In this document: one piece after another, positions 1-24,382 of the stretch | How positions within the stretch are numbered: the first letter of the stretch is position 1 | How the letters are laid out: each line of letters starts with the position of its first letter | Origin: a virus | DNA length: 24,382 nucleotides | IMG/VR virus record: IMGVR_UViG_3300043353_000020 | Location: 1-24,382 of that record | Strand: one strand, 5' to 3' | Notes under the pieces: generated by a model | Database searches by the model: none | Told to the model about the DNA's origin: nothing | What the model saw: only the letters and a program-made list of their open reading frames with translations | Position numbers and translations under genes: made by a program

Positions 1-127
1 CGTGCAGGCCCTCGGGATCACCGTGTCCGAGTTCTTTGGACAGGTAGAGCAGGAGCGTTCGCGTGATGGATCGCCGCCGCCACTCGCCCAGCGCCTCGAT
101 CGCCTCGAAAAATTCGACGAAACCATC
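1..127. repeat. Terminal direct repeat, left copy (circular join)
   Basis: These 127 bases are identical to 24256-24382. An exact repeat of this length at both ends of a contig, with a coding frame running through it, is what a de Bruijn assembler with k=127 leaves on a circular molecule. The alternative, a real short terminal repeat of a linear virion, is less likely because the repeat lies inside a gene. Confidence 0.93.
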
Positions 128-5672: not shown

Positions 5673-7496
5673 CTACACACGCCGCGCTTGCAGGACGGAT
5701 CGCATGATCAGATCGCTCACGCGCCGCGCGAGGTTGCTTTCGGTGTCGACGAGGTGGAAGGTGTTTTGTACGACCGTCGCGCCGGCGCCGTTCGGGGTGA
5801 TCACGCCGCTCGCGCCTGGCGTGTAGAGCTCCGGCCCTTTCTCGCCCACGAGGTACGAGGTACCGGCCGCGACCGGGCCGCCAGCCGCGCGCGCCGGCGG
5901 GACGTAGTAGCTCGAGCCGGCGCCCGATCCGCTCGTCGCGGAATTCGCCTCGAACGGGACATACACCGAGCCGCCCTGGTTGCCCGTGGGCGACGTGTAC
6001 ACGCTGCCGTCCGTAGAGCCGCCGACGTTGCCCGACGGGCCGCCGACGCCAGCCTGCGCGTTTCTGACGGCATCCTCGGCGATCGCCTGCTGGTACAGCG
6101 CGCGCGTGTAGTCGGTGACGGCGCCGGACGCCGCCGGCAGGATCGTGTCCGCTTGGGCCTTGAGCGACGCGTTATAGGCGTCGACCTTGAGCATCAAATC
6201 GGTATAGCGGTCGGCGGCCTCGTCGGTCAGCGTGCCGTTGCGCGCCATCGCCTCGAGCGCGTCGCGCATGGTCGCCCCGAGATCGTCGCGCATCTTCGCC
6301 GACAGGCGGCCGACGTCGTCATTGAGCCCGGTGATCGCATCGCTCCAGGTCGCGGCGCGCTTGAGCGCCGGCGTCCCGAAGGCGTCCTCCTGCAGCTTGG
6401 CGACTTCCTCCCAGTGCGCGCGCGTCGCCGTTTCGATCTCGGCGTTCTGTTTCTCGAACGCTTTGGCGAGCTCGTCGTACGCCGCCTTCGTCGCATCCGC
6501 GGCCGCCTTGTTCTGTTCCATCGTCGCCGTCGCGGCCGCGCCCCAACTATCCTGTTGGATCTTTGCGTCCTCGGCCGACAGTGTGATCGCCTGGAACCCG
6601 GTGGCGACCGCGGTCTGGAGCGGCGGGATCGCGGCGAGCGCGACGGACAGCCCGGCGTCGGCCGACGCCTGGATCGCCGCCCAGTCCTGCGAGGCTTTTA
6701 CCTGTGCGTCGAATTCCTTGTTCGTTTCGGCCAGGCTCCCGAGAATGGCGCCGCCGGCGTTGACCGTCTCGGTTTTCAGGTGCTTCCAGGCATTTTCGAT
6801 TTCGTTGAGGTTCTGAACGTATTTCTCTTTCAGGACTGGCGCCTGGTCGCCGAGATCCTGGATCTCGGCCTTCATCGCCGGGTAAATCTCCTTCCAGTTC
6901 TTGTGGAAAATCGCTTCGGCTTCGGCCGCGCGCTGGTAGGGATCCTCGATCCCCGCGACGGCGGCGCTCAGTTGGACGAATTGGTCGTACGCCGAGAGCT
7001 TCTTAAACTCGTCGAGATTGATATTCAGATCGCCGACGGCGCGGACGACGCCGGCATTGTTGCTGCCGATATCCGCCTGGAGCTGCTGCGCGGCGCCGCT
7101 CAGCGCGCCGACGGACACGCTCGACTGTTGCGCGATGAACTGGAGTTTCTGGACCTCGTCGGTCGACATGCCGGTTTTTGCGGCCATCGTCCCGATCGCG
7201 TCGGCCGCCTCGAACACGGCCGCGCCGAAGTTCGCGATCTGCTGCACGGTGAACGCGCCGGCGAGCATGCCGCCGATCTGGCGCGTGACGCCGCCCAGGT
7301 CGATCAGGGACGACGTCGCCGCCTTGGTTTCCGTCGTGATCGCTTTGACCGTCGCCGGCGTGGTCGCGCCCATCTGGTCGAGCGCTTTGCCGGCGTCCTT
7401 GCTATCGGCTTCCAGACCGGCGAGCGCGGCCGTCGCGGTTTTCACGCCGTCATTGAAGGCGGAAAAATCGGCTTCGAAATGTCCGGTGATCGGCAT
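5673..7496 (-). CDS. Tail tape measure protein
   Basis: 607 residues. It sets tail length and is threaded in the tail tube. The N-terminal 250 residues are helical with Ala-rich heptads; residues about 95-125 are hydrophobic (IGGMLAGAFTVQQIANFGAAV). A long coiled-coil region follows (EQNKAAADATKAAYDELAKAF). Near the C-terminus is the Gly-rich motif GGPVAAGTSYLVGEKGPELY typical of tape measures, after a Ser/Gly/Thr linker. At about 0.15 nm per residue the tail would be roughly 90 nm. It starts eight bases after the end of the frameshifted chaperone, the invariant gene order of siphovirus tails. Confidence 0.93.
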   Translation of the reverse strand: MPITGHFEADFSAFNDGVKTATAALAGLEADSKDAGKALDQMGATTPATVKAITTETKAATSSLIDLGGVTRQIGGMLAGAFTVQQIANFGAAVFEAADAIGTMAAKTGMSTDEVQKLQFIAQQSSVSVGALSGAAQQLQADIGSNNAGVVRAVGDLNINLDEFKKLSAYDQFVQLSAAVAGIEDPYQRAAEAEAIFHKNWKEIYPAMKAEIQDLGDQAPVLKEKYVQNLNEIENAWKHLKTETVNAGGAILGSLAETNKEFDAQVKASQDWAAIQASADAGLSVALAAIPPLQTAVATGFQAITLSAEDAKIQQDSWGAAATATMEQNKAAADATKAAYDELAKAFEKQNAEIETATRAHWEEVAKLQEDAFGTPALKRAATWSDAITGLNDDVGRLSAKMRDDLGATMRDALEAMARNGTLTDEAADRYTDLMLKVDAYNASLKAQADTILPAASGAVTDYTRALYQQAIAEDAVRNAQAGVGGPSGNVGGSTDGSVYTSPTGNQGGSVYVPFEANSATSGSGAGSSYYVPPARAAGGPVAAGTSYLVGEKGPELYTPGASGVITPNGAGATVVQNTFHLVDTESNLARRVSDLIMRSVLQARRV

Positions 7497-11775: not shown

Positions 11776-13149
11776 TTACGCCGCCTTGCGGTCGTTGCTC
11801 TGGAGCGACGCCGGCGCGTCGGTGCCACTCGGCGCCGGCCACGCGACACCCGTGAGGTACTTCACCGCGTTCGGATTCGCCCGGAGCCAGTTCACGTACC
11901 GTTCCGCGCGCAGCCCGACCATGTTGTTCTGCCAGAGCGAGACGAACACGGTCGTCGCATCCGCCGGCGACATGGGCGCGGAATCCATCTGCAGCGACGC
12001 TTCGCGCGACACGTCGATCGTCACGCCGCCGTCGTCCGCGAACAGGATCAGGCTCGGCTGCAGCGCGATCACAAGCTGCCCGACGGTGTTGCTCACGACG
12101 AAATTGATCCCGCGGTACGATCCGCCGTTCATCGTCACGCCCGGGAATTGCGGCGAGCCGTCCAGATTCGATCGGAAGGACAGCGCCAGCGCGTTGCCGG
12201 CCGACAGGATGAACGTGAGCCCGTCCGCCGGGATATTGAACGAGGCGAAGTGCGCGATCAGGCCGAGAATATCGGCGAGCGGATTGGTGGTCGCCGTGGC
12301 CGTCGGCGCGCCGTTCGTGATGGACGCCGGGTGCACGTTGGCGACCGCGGCGACCGCGGGGTCGGTGAATTGCTGATCAAGGAACCGCGCGATCCCGGCG
12401 ATCATGTCGGCGCGCACAAGCGCCTCGGCCGACGGCGACGAGAGCCGCGCGAGCTCGTCGGTGATCGCGATGATGCCGGCCGCCTTCGCGATCCCGAGCG
12501 TGACACTCGTGAATCCGAGCGCCGTCATGGGCTTGGGCTTCGCCTCGCCAACCCAGTTGTATGACCCGCCGGCTGTCTGACTTGGGACCAGCGTATTGAA
12601 CGGCACATTCCGCAGCCCGGGAATCTTGCCCAGGATCGTCGCCGCGCGGAGCAGCTCGATAAATTCATTCGAGATCGACGGCCGCACGAGCGGTCCGGCC
12701 CATGTCGGATCCGTCGTGGTGCCCGGTGCGATCGCCGCCTTGAGCGCGAGCGCGACCTCCGGCGTTGAATCGTTCCAGCGTTCGGCGTACGCCGCGGCCT
12801 CGTGCATGTTGCCGTTGCAGACCAGTTTCGCGCACGCAAGCCGGACAAACGCGGTGCCGGCCGGCACGTTCGCGCCCTTCACCGAAATGACCGGGAGCGC
12901 CGGCGCGCGTGGGGTCGGCGGTACCGGCACGGCCGCGGCCGCCTGGATCCGTTCGAGATCACGCCAGCGCACGAGGTCCGCGTCGATCGATTTGACCTCG
13001 AGCGCGAGCCCGTCATGTTCCGTCGCGGCCGCCTCGTCGAGCGTCGCGCCGCCGTCGGCGGCCGTCGCCATGATGTCGGCCATGCGGCCTGTGTGCGCGG
13101 CGCGCTTGTTCTCGAGCGCCTGGATATGTTCGGCCGTGGTGAGTTTCAT
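11776..13149 (-). CDS. Major capsid protein from internal start
   Basis: Starting at Met163 of the fusion (MKLTTAEHIQALENKRA) this gives 457 residues: a delta-like helical region plus the HK97 capsid fold. The GAGGT six bases upstream is better than the site of the full-length frame, as expected if capsid is needed in large excess over protease. This is an inferred second product; whether it is made, and where the protease cuts, is not visible. Confidence 0.6.
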   Translation of the reverse strand: MKLTTAEHIQALENKRAAHTGRMADIMATAADGGATLDEAAATEHDGLALEVKSIDADLVRWRDLERIQAAAAVPVPPTPRAPALPVISVKGANVPAGTAFVRLACAKLVCNGNMHEAAAYAERWNDSTPEVALALKAAIAPGTTTDPTWAGPLVRPSISNEFIELLRAATILGKIPGLRNVPFNTLVPSQTAGGSYNWVGEAKPKPMTALGFTSVTLGIAKAAGIIAITDELARLSSPSAEALVRADMIAGIARFLDQQFTDPAVAAVANVHPASITNGAPTATATTNPLADILGLIAHFASFNIPADGLTFILSAGNALALSFRSNLDGSPQFPGVTMNGGSYRGINFVVSNTVGQLVIALQPSLILFADDGGVTIDVSREASLQMDSAPMSPADATTVFVSLWQNNMVGLRAERYVNWLRANPNAVKYLTGVAWPAPSGTDAPASLQSNDRKAA

Positions 13150-13635
13150 ACCGGTACCTCGCGCTGGGCGCGCCAGCGATTTCACGTGCAGAATCGTTGC
13201 GTGGACATTCGCGGGAATCGCGACCAGGGAGAGCTCACAGATTTCCGTCGCGGTCAGGCGGCGCGCGCCGGCGGTCAAGTACTGGACGCCGTCGCGCGCG
13301 ATGTTGTGACCGATCGACACGGCGCGATAGAGCCGCGCCTTGACGGATTGCCAGGCTTCGTCGACGCGCGTCTGGAGCGTGCCGGGCTCGTCGACCGTTG
13401 GGATCGTCGCCTCGAACGCGATCCGCCCGTCTGGCAGACGCGACAGCATGGCGGTCCCGACCGGGAGCCGTTGATCGTGGTGGAGCAGGAGCGCGACGGG
13501 ATTACGGAAGGTGACGCCGGCCGGATCGATGATGTCGCCCTGGCGATCGAGCTCCGGCGTGGACGCGATGCCGCTGAAGGTGCGGCGCGACGCGTCGATC
13601 GATTTGACCTCGAGCAAGGCGTACGCGCGATCCAT
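11776..13635 (-). CDS. Prohead protease-major capsid protein fusion
   Basis: 619 residues. The first 160 match the HK97-type prohead protease: ASRRTFSGIASTPELDRQGD, His52/His53 (LLHHDQ) and Ser136 (ELSLVAIPAN) as catalytic candidates. Residues about 163-250 are a charged helical stretch comparable to the HK97 delta scaffold. Residues about 260-619 are the capsid fold (GKIPGLRNVPFNTL; TDELARLSSPSAE; GINFVVSNTV; GLRAERYVNW at the end). An internal ATG at 13149 (Met163) has GAGGT six bases upstream, so capsid could also be made alone. No clear ribosome site precedes ATG13635, 56 bases after the RHH gene. Confidence 0.92.
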   Translation of the reverse strand: MDRAYALLEVKSIDASRRTFSGIASTPELDRQGDIIDPAGVTFRNPVALLLHHDQRLPVGTAMLSRLPDGRIAFEATIPTVDEPGTLQTRVDEAWQSVKARLYRAVSIGHNIARDGVQYLTAGARRLTATEICELSLVAIPANVHATILHVKSLARPARGTGMKLTTAEHIQALENKRAAHTGRMADIMATAADGGATLDEAAATEHDGLALEVKSIDADLVRWRDLERIQAAAAVPVPPTPRAPALPVISVKGANVPAGTAFVRLACAKLVCNGNMHEAAAYAERWNDSTPEVALALKAAIAPGTTTDPTWAGPLVRPSISNEFIELLRAATILGKIPGLRNVPFNTLVPSQTAGGSYNWVGEAKPKPMTALGFTSVTLGIAKAAGIIAITDELARLSSPSAEALVRADMIAGIARFLDQQFTDPAVAAVANVHPASITNGAPTATATTNPLADILGLIAHFASFNIPADGLTFILSAGNALALSFRSNLDGSPQFPGVTMNGGSYRGINFVVSNTVGQLVIALQPSLILFADDGGVTIDVSREASLQMDSAPMSPADATTVFVSLWQNNMVGLRAERYVNWLRANPNAVKYLTGVAWPAPSGTDAPASLQSNDRKAA

Positions 13636-18722: not shown

Positions 18723-18763
18723 GCGGCCGCCTTGAAAGGAATCCCGCGGTGAAAGAACCGCAT
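18719..18763 (-). CDS. 14-codon bridging ORF, possible translational coupler
   Basis: MRFFHRGIPFKAAA. Its ATG overlaps the preceding stop as TGATG and its TGA overlaps the rusA GTG as GTGA, so it spans the inter-gene gap exactly. Such an arrangement would let ribosomes pass from one gene to the next. It may be chance. Confidence 0.35.
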   Translation of the reverse strand: MRFFHRGIPFKAAA

Positions 18764-19170
18764 CAGTCGCAGCCTTTCCACTTGCGCGCTGCGTCGCGGC
18801 GCCGGAGCTCCACGACGATCGATCGCGCAATCGGGCGCGACACGATCGGCGGCTCCGGCACGAGCCGATCGACGAGCCGGCGCGGTGTCGAATCGACGAC
18901 GATCGGCCGGTTCGATCCGACCAGGCGTAGCGCCTCGGACACGTCGTCAGCGGTCCACTTCAGCCGAATCCGGCCGGCGCGCGCTTTCACGTCGGCGACG
19001 ACGTCGGCGTACGTCGTGGCGTCCGGTGCTGAATTGAGTGTTTCTCTCAGCATTTTTGCCAGGATCCGCGCGGTGACGTTGCCGGCGTCGTGGAGGTTTT
19101 CCACAGGTTTTCCACAGAAATGGGGAAATCGCGCGCTTTTGGCGCGAGGTTCTACTCTCTCAACTATCAA
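18763..19170 (-). CDS. Unknown protein overlapping the origin candidate
   Basis: 135 residues from TTG19170, four bases after the DUF1376 stop. The next start in frame is ATG19053, which would drop 39 residues, including those coded by the DnaA-box-like repeats. It has ILAKMLRETLNSAPDATTYA, then IRLKWTADDVSEALRLVGSN, and a basic end (RRRDAARKWKGC). Not recognised. Its place between DUF1376 and RusA suggests a replication or recombination accessory. Confidence 0.6.
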   Translation of the reverse strand: MIVERVEPRAKSARFPHFCGKPVENLHDAGNVTARILAKMLRETLNSAPDATTYADVVADVKARAGRIRLKWTADDVSEALRLVGSNRPIVVDSTPRRLVDRLVPEPPIVSRPIARSIVVELRRRDAARKWKGCD

Positions 19171-19320
19171 AACCTAGCGCTCCAGATCCGGATCTGGCAG
19201 GTACCCAGATCTCTCTAGATCCGGATCCGGATCCGGAGAACCGGGTTTGTTACCACCATCGTTACCGGGGCTATCGCCATTCGCGTTACCGTTTGCGTTA
19301 CCGGCCTTCTTACCGCGCCG
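19097..19320. other. Candidate phage replication origin inside the DUF1376 region
   Basis: Three kinds of repeat lie together: two TTTTCCACA words 11 bp apart (19097-19105 and 19108-19116; one mismatch from the DnaA box TTATCCACA), a GATC-rich patch with a perfect 16-bp palindrome (19182-19197), and 12-bp-period iterons (19249-19320). They fall in and just after the linker part of a replication-type gene, as in lambda, whose origin lies inside gene O. No AT-rich unwinding element is obvious. Confidence 0.5.
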
Positions 19321-19647
19321 AGCCCGGTAGGATTGCTGTTTGGTTGCACGCCTGGCCGACTGCGCGAGCACGGCGTCGAGTGTTTCGTTGTGCCAGCCGT
19401 CCTCGCGTTTGACGAAGTAATGCATCACGCGCGCGCGGATCGCTTTCCAGCGCTGCGCGTCGCCGCTCGCTTTCGCCAGGATCCGCTCATCGGTTGGCAG
19501 CGCGCCGCCTCTCAGATGCGCGTGATCGAGCAAGTTGCGGTACGCGCCTTGTTCCTCGAGCGTGAGCGTGAGATACGCCGACGACTTCAGCCAGCGATCG
19601 CTCCACCAAAAGAGCCCGTGCAGTTGCATCGCCGCCGCTCCGCTCAT
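19174..19647 (-). CDS. DUF1376-type replication protein
   Basis: 157 residues, ATGA overlap with the gene before. Residues about 10-95 match DUF1376: FWWSDRWLKSSAYLTLTLEE, then GAYRNLLDHAHLRGGALPTD, then a tail near RVMHYFVKREDGWHNETL. Proteins with this N-domain are thought to serve phage replication initiation. The last 45 residues are low complexity: a GNAN-type four-residue repeat and then Pro/Asp-rich PDPDPDLER, with PDPDLER repeated at the end. These residues are coded by 12-bp iterons and the GATC-rich palindromic patch, so sequence there may be kept for DNA function. No helicase-loader domain is attached, unlike many larger relatives. Confidence 0.8.
   Translation of the reverse strand: MSGAAAMQLHGLFWWSDRWLKSSAYLTLTLEEQGAYRNLLDHAHLRGGALPTDERILAKASGDAQRWKAIRARVMHYFVKREDGWHNETLDAVLAQSARRATKQQSYRARRGKKAGNANGNANGDSPGNDGGNKPGSPDPDPDLERSGYLPDPDLER
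19249..19320 (-). repeat. 12-bp iterons (GGTAAC)
   Basis: On the coding strand, GGTAAC begins a 12-bp unit four times (plus-strand GTTACC at 19249, 19261, 19285 and 19297), with degenerate units in register at 19273 (ATCGCC) and 19309 (CTTACC). They code for the GNAN-like repeats of the DUF1376 protein. Confidence 0.75.
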
Positions 19648-24094: not shown

Positions 24095-24382
24095 ATGGAT
24101 TGGAGATTGGTGCGGGAGCACTACCGCCGGTTGTTTGAGGCATCCGGACGGACGCAAACAGACGTGGCGCGCGCCGCCGGCCTGAGCCAAAGCGCGATCC
24201 ATAAACTCTTGGCGAATAAGCGCGACGGCCCGACCGTCGAGACGCTCTTAGCCGCCGTGCAGGCCCTCGGGATCACCGTGTCCGAGTTCTTTGGACAGGT
24301 AGAGCAGGAGCGTTCGCGTGATGGATCGCCGCCGCCACTCGCCCAGCGCCTCGATCGCCTCGAAAAATTCGACGAAACCATC
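24095..24382 (+). CDS. XRE-family regulator, N-terminal part (CI-like; continues at base 2)
   Basis: ATG24095 has GGGAG nine bases upstream; an in-frame ATG24077 lacks a ribosome site. The HTH covers residues about 5-62: TQTDVARAAGLSQSAIHKLL followed by DGPTVETLLAAVQALGITVS. The frame is open to the window end and resumes at base 2 through the 127-base overlap. It leads the rightward operon with integrase, opposite the Cro-like gene, so it is the likely lysogeny repressor. There is no LexA-like protease domain, so induction would not be by RecA-driven self-cleavage. See 2-295 for the doubtful C-terminal frame. Confidence 0.85.
   Translation, partial: MDWRLVREHYRRLFEASGRTQTDVARAAGLSQSAIHKLLANKRDGPTVETLLAAVQALGITVSEFFGQVEQERSRDGSPPPLAQRLDRLEKFDETI
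24256..24382. repeat. Terminal direct repeat, right copy (circular join)
   Basis: Identical to bases 1-127. Counting it once gives a 24,255-bp circle. Confidence 0.93.

Follow-up and report, generated by a model that had tools for sequence, protein, structure and literature searches.

A putative replication origin inside the DUF1376 gene of a phage from soil

Introduction

DUF1376 proteins are widespread in phages, and no function has been assigned to the family. In the phage considered here, the 3' part of the DUF1376 gene carries short words repeated at regular steps, which raises the question of whether these repeats serve the encoded peptide or the DNA itself. The first-pass annotation of this DNA had suggested that they might serve the DNA and had put forward a candidate in-gene replication origin. 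Such an origin appears very probable because the DNA sites are kept in related phages where the protein code is not. The fuller reading, that the segment is a phage replication origin of the lambda-O type located inside the gene of its own initiator and read by the DUF1376 protein, is given a probability of about 0.75. The DUF1376 gene is accordingly proposed as a replication initiator gene whose 3' part would hold the origin, and we infer that the protein binds the array, that the strands open and that replication starts there.

The Phage and Its DUF1376 Gene

The window, i.e., the whole stretch of DNA analyzed, comprises 24,382 nucleotides of the IMG/VR record IMGVR_UViG_3300043353_000020, from a soil phage. 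Because a 127-bp direct terminal repeat is found at the ends of the record (window 1-127 and 24256-24382), it probably represents a complete circular genome, that of a temperate phage of about 24.26 kb. This is a small size for a tailed temperate phage. Genes for an integrase, a terminase, a portal, head and tail proteins, a RecT-like annealing protein, an exonuclease and RusA can be found in the window, and RecT, the exonuclease and RusA are among the neighbors of the DUF1376 gene. No obvious helicase or helicase loader was recognized among the window genes examined. A 619-aa open reading frame (ORF) at 11776-13635 on the minus strand corresponds to a head maturation protease fused to the major head protein.

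The DUF1376 gene occupies 19174..19647 on the minus strand and encodes 157 aa. Its product matches Pfam DUF1376 (PF07120) with an E-value of 8.4e-13 and 49 bits, above the curated cut-off of 30.1; this is its only Pfam match, and no sequence relation with the lambda O family was found. Its PHROG matches are primosomal protein or unknown families. In an AlphaFold2 model of the protein (pLDDT 84), helices and strands follow one another in winged-helix order, and a fold search with this model gave no significant match (4PTA at rank 19, E 1.2). The domain is followed by a low-complexity linker with GN repeats and PDPDPD. Regarding the distribution of the subfamily to which the protein belongs, no member was found in sequenced bacterial genomes and no match to named phages was obtained by tblastn. 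Read along the minus strand, the DUF1376 domain is followed by six 12-bp units, a tract of 6-bp period with a palindrome, the stop codon, an A+T-richer stretch with a short hairpin, two TGTGGAAAA words and a small ORF.

The Iteron Array

The iteron array lies at 19249..19314 on the minus strand and is made of six 12-bp units with the core RTAACG, here GGTAAC. Four units are exact, namely unit 2 (19297-19302), unit 3 (19285-19290), unit 5 (19261-19266) and unit 6 (19249-19254), and two are degenerate, unit 1 reading GGTAAG (19309-19314) and unit 4 GGCGAT (19273-19278). The six units in 12-bp register, two of them degenerate, had been described correctly by the first-pass annotation, in position as in number. 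Only five GGTAAC are found in the whole window, four of them in the array, and a scan of the genome for repeats at helical lags, made without reference to any word, ranks the array first with a score of 24 (next best, 10).

A protein search of viral contigs yielded 44 loci, and the comparison set consists of 32 non-redundant DUF1376 loci, some of them added from a later pattern scan. RTAACG is present behind the DUF1376 domain in 28 of these 32 relatives, with 99 sites in all, whereas the remainder of these loci predicts about 2. The spacing is kept as well: 60 of the 69 short spacings are exactly 12 bp, and none is 9, 15 or 18 bp, though these would be equally compatible with the reading frame. 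The six spacer bases between the words have a composition near background, i.e., a fixed word is separated by diverged spacers, and the units are therefore not recent copies of one another. The paired pattern RTAACG-N6-RTAACG is present in 16 of 19 related phage records. Every match falls at the DUF1376 tail and has the orientation of the gene, and the same 19 records contain no match to the reversed pattern. Iterons are kept in the long forms of DUF1376 as well.

The protein code does not follow this constancy. The array of several phages runs across the stop codon or lies past it, with eight RTAACG sites past the stop in locus L004, nine in L017 and four in L043, and in L004 and L024 it switches frame by steps of 13 and 11 bp. 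In addition, a T precedes 106 of 139 linker Asn codons (76%) compared with 82 of 1,379 elsewhere (6%), giving p 2e-80, a value to be read with the caveat that sites inside one array are not independent. The T is synonymous, being the third base of its codon, and the residue encoded there can be Gly, Arg, His, Asp or Ser. Taken locus by locus, 22 of the 24 loci with at least two linker Asn have at least half of them preceded by T. Because of the sites past the stop codon, the frame switches, the synonymous T bias, the 12-bp spacing and the placement of the paired pattern, an explanation by the protein alone is rejected, and the comparison indicates that selection acts on the DNA of the array and not on the peptide. 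The earlier suggestion that the peptide repeat may exist in order to carry DNA sites thereby passes the check on homologues that had been proposed with it, as homologues keep the word and its spacing while residues, frame and stop position change.

The array has been lost in L003 and L041. L003 is a close relative with 69% identity in DUF1376, and around its position 6350 neither RTAACG sites nor an obvious hexamer tract can be seen; the origin of L003 is therefore elsewhere or changed.

The Hexanucleotide Tract

Behind the iterons, a tract with a 6-bp period extends over 19182..19239 on the minus strand, running from TCTCCGGATCCGGATCC to CCAGATCCGGATCTGG. It contains the perfect 16-bp palindrome CCAGATCCGGATCTGG (19182-19197) and six GATC sites in about 60 bp. 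The palindrome and the run of GATC in which it lies are present as the first-pass annotation describes them, but neither is conserved as such in relatives. Most relatives carry a hexamer tract behind the iterons built on other sequences (TCTCCG, CTGGAT, CAGGAT, CAGGAA or CAGTAT), often following the stop codon, and GATC content tracks the hexamer chosen by each phage. Palindrome and GATC cluster were hence rejected as separate elements. Over the whole window, GATC occurs about twice as often as expected (365 vs. 177). The three repeat classes of the first-pass annotation can thus all be found at the coordinates given, but the palindrome and the GATC run are parts of a single 6-bp-period tract, and the DnaA-like words lie past the DUF1376 stop codon.

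Hexamer tracts are also present in 13 of the linkers of 46 non-redundant distant DUF1376 genes, collected by domain alone, compared with 0.08% of control stretches. Sequence comparison thus indicates that the tract, like the array, is maintained by selection on the DNA directly behind the DUF1376 domain. It may be an unwinding or helicase-loading element, and it occupies the place of the AT-rich unwinding tract of lambda. It is GC-containing and not A+T-rich. The A+T content near the array is modest: the 80-bp maximum is 54% AT, a value that 7% of random stretches attain, and the combined p for 16 records is 9e-4. An RNA element was considered as well and rejected: no Rfam family matches the segment at the gathering threshold, and the miRNA matches below the threshold only reflect inverted hexamers.

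Elements Downstream of the Stop Codon

The stop codon is followed by a stretch richer in A+T (19128..19173 on the minus strand), which contains AGAGTAGAACCT and a short hairpin (stems 19142-19147 and 19129-19134). Within it, at 19128-19165, lies an element composed of GAA(T/G)TAG, then AACCT or NGCAG, and a short GC hairpin of changing sequence, located just upstream of the small gene. Equivalents are found in fourteen loci (L004, L005, L006, L011, L013, L014, L021, L028, L030, L031, L033, L036, L037, and L043). Because long DUF1376 forms without this element keep the iterons, it is set apart from them and appears by its distribution to belong with the small downstream gene. It is possibly a leader or attenuator RNA, or a DNA hairpin.

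The small ORF itself (18763..19104, minus strand) encodes an all-helical protein of 113 aa from a probable GTG start and is conserved downstream of short DUF1376 genes. A search of viral contigs with this ORF alone gave no hits, and its homologues were found by position only; D34, K40, and A58 are invariant among them. There is no Pfam match to this protein, and a fold search with its model gave no significant match. One may speculate that it acts as a partner or loader in phages with a short DUF1376.

Two DnaA-like words, TTTTCCACA on the plus strand (TGTGGAAAA on the minus strand), are found in tandem 11 bp apart at 19097-19105 and 19108-19116, with one further exact copy elsewhere in the window. 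They are placed as the first-pass annotation had it, but they recur in only 5 of the 32 relatives and overlap the region of a start codon, and as evidence for an origin they are weak. The 6 copies in the relatives (0.07 expected) all lie where the next gene begins, and in the window the copy at 19097-19105 contains what is probably the GTG start codon of the following ORF, CTGTGGAAAAC being a plausible start-codon context. TTATNCACA is absent from all 32 loci. DnaA boxes (TTWTNCACA) near the array, found in 5 of the 32 loci, are not conserved and were rejected as a defining part of the origin. From its distribution, TTTTCCACA does not appear to be a conserved origin part; it may nevertheless be functional.

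GC Skew

The GC-skew minimum of the window is located 1.3 kb from the array. The first-pass annotation had proposed skew as a check on the origin, and the relatives do not show a minimum near the array consistently: averaged over 16 records, the circular distance from the array is 0.20 of the genome for the minimum and 0.205 for the maximum, compared with 0.25 by chance. GC skew was therefore rejected as an origin marker, being uninformative over these records.

Distant DUF1376 Genes

In the linkers of the 46 distant genes, six-mer matches peak at lags of 11, 12, 22, 23, 24, 33, and 34 bp and stay at background level at 9, 15, 18, 27, and 30 bp. At lag 11 alone, 175 six-mer matches are found in 28 loci where 4 are expected, and the helical lags that are not triplets give 351 matches vs. 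29 expected. A step of 11 bp is not a whole number of codons, and the 11-bp repeats therefore cannot be peptide repeats. The repeated words differ, e.g., AGCAATG, TCAACGG, GATCACA, or TCAGCGA; RTAACG was accordingly rejected as a universal DUF1376 word, distant members using other words as a rule. The phased design of the linker, as far as these sequences tell, recurs throughout the DUF1376 family.

The Same Word in Other Initiator Families

Viral contigs were also scanned for four phased RTAACG, and families were tallied among the matches listed, not among unique members, so that the tallies are to be read as a trend and not as a test. Tail-fiber repeats, including exact GNVT-type ones, and many replication genes are among the matches listed, and the top PHROG families among them are replication initiation, primosomal, replisome organiser, and DnaD-like. 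Of 10 array genes tested, 3 (L083, L153, and L076) match Pfam Phage_rep_org_N, and RTAACG linkers are present in other initiator families as well (L046, L054, L106, L111, L123, L142, L149, and L162). A single protein of this group reads the word in two frames (N-A/G and V-T), and inverted copies are frequent in these linkers. A permuted control word gave fewer replication-gene matches among the matches listed; arrays with diverged spacers account for 34 of 120 matches listed for RTAACG and 2 of 120 for the control word. The control-word matches listed include a few initiator genes, consistent with other words serving as iterons.

It is tentatively suggested, as a possibility still short of an even chance, that DUF1376 together with replication initiation proteins, replisome organisers, and DnaD-like loaders makes up one large winged-helix class with in-gene origins, many of which would share RTAACG in a stop-avoiding frame and the hexamer tract as a new unwinding or helicase-loading element. 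If so, unrelated initiators that use the same word would suggest either a single recognition code or a host factor common to them.

Proposed Mechanism and Alternatives

With regard to mechanism, the winged-helix-like domain of DUF1376 would bind the RTAACG words, which return at roughly every turn of the helix with a step of 12 bp in the window, 11 bp being the step in many other DUF1376 genes. The resulting nucleoprotein array would strain the adjoining strand-asymmetric hexamer tract and the A+T-richer DNA behind it, and the host helicase would be loaded at the strained DNA, as with lambda O. In long forms, the C-terminal part of DUF1376 could help in loading; in short forms, such as that of the window, the small downstream protein may do so. 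The conservation of word and spacing in homologues favors the in-gene origin, as do the primosomal PHROG class, the predicted winged-helix order, and the like architecture of Rac ydaU; the palindrome with its GATC sites, the DnaA-like words, and the skew, all raised with the original idea, fail or weaken as support. Counting against it are the skew of the relatives, the low A+T content of the hexamer tract, the loss of the array in a few relatives, the lack of a significant fold match for the DUF1376 model, and the lack of a recognizable helicase or loader among the window genes examined.

Among other explanations, the least unlikely, though still improbable, is that the array is an in-gene operator by which DUF1376 or another regulator controls transcription of the replication operon, replication starting elsewhere. 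A phased array to which a winged-helix protein binds would have the same appearance in either case, the DUF1376 gene is located in the early operon, and the conserved TAG-hairpin downstream suggests possible regulation of the gene that follows. However, the sites are far inside or past the gene and not at a promoter, the long DUF1376 forms that do not have the downstream element retain the iterons, and an operator leaves the hexamer tract and the lambda-O-like order unexplained. The two roles are not exclusive. Less probable again are DNA sites for packaging, partition or recombination, to which the presence of RecT, exonuclease, and RusA nearby might lead, position and periodicity being what is known of the sites; against this, the arrays are always behind the DNA-binding-like domain of an initiator, and among the matches listed in the RTAACG scan they also occur in replication-initiation, primosomal, replisome-organiser, and DnaD-like genes.

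A DnaA-dependent origin resembling oriC, marked by the tandem TTTTCCACA and the GATC cluster, is very unlikely: two such words one helical turn apart, and the excess of copies in the 32 loci, would fit it, but their restriction to 5 relatives at the start of the next gene in the context CTGTGGAAAAC, the lack of TTATNCACA in all loci and the dependence of GATC content on the hexamer of each phage do not. Hardly credible, finally, is a linker produced by low-complexity slippage and devoid of DNA function. Linkers with GN repeats and PDPDPD do grow in this manner, and the same pattern scan finds the GNVT-type tail-fiber repeats; yet slippage is contradicted by the sites past the stop and in shifted frames, the invariant synonymous T, the 11-bp spacing in distant relatives, and the diverged spacers around a fixed word.

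On the preferred reading, an origin inside the initiator gene, the phased sites would give DUF1376 a concrete role as an origin-binding initiator. The position of the origin would become predictable from sequence alone in many uncultured phages and prophages, and DUF1376 linkers (GN repeats, SPSPSP, DTDTDT) would be by-products of DNA sites.

Relation to Known Origins

In-gene origins are already known; what differs here is the initiator family, the short helically phased words, and the hexanucleotide tract. In the literature searched, with subscription journals outside its scope, no earlier report of an in-gene origin for DUF1376 was found, and the literature searched contained no paper on a GTAACG origin. 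In lambda gene O and in the origins of Stx phages, the origin lies in the middle of the initiator gene, with iterons bound by the gene's own product and an adjoining AT-rich tract where the strands open (PMC7466680). The window has in common with lambda O the directly repeated sites inside the initiator gene, six units in the DUF1376 ORF, and a special tract adjoining the iterons. It differs in its protein family, in its 6-bp core at 12-bp steps, in a tract that is a GC-containing hexanucleotide repeat, and in that the array may pass the stop codon.

RepA_N initiators, found in pSK41- and pAD1-type plasmids and as RepA of the PLE satellite, bind iterons through a DnaD-like winged-helix N-terminal domain (PMC3155836, PMC7145576). 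A list of plasmids that have recognizable iterons and an in-gene origin includes pSK41 and pAD1 (PMC3155836), whereas the PLE iterons are in a non-coding region (PMC7145576). There is no detectable sequence relation between RepA_N and DUF1376, and RepA_N iterons are longer and semi-palindromic; as to fold, a winged-helix-like order is predicted for DUF1376, the match to 4PTA being not significant. In repABC plasmids, oriV is inside repC, where silent changes abolish replication (PMC3155836). As proposed for the window, the origin is inside the initiator gene, but repABC has no iterons and its key element is an A+T-rich region.

The Rac prophage of E. coli has an active origin, oriJ (PMC3945230); the literature searched yielded no statement of where oriJ lies with respect to ydaU. 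The linker of Rac YdaU carries ATGTTCAA-type repeats at 33, 33, and 12 bp together with an inverted copy, followed by AGATAAAGATACAGAT (AGAT-type) hexamers. YdaU thus belongs to the same Pfam family as the window protein and shows the same architecture of repeats and hexamers, but it uses another word, has a long C-terminal part, and is followed by the gene of a putative ATP-binding protein, YdaV.
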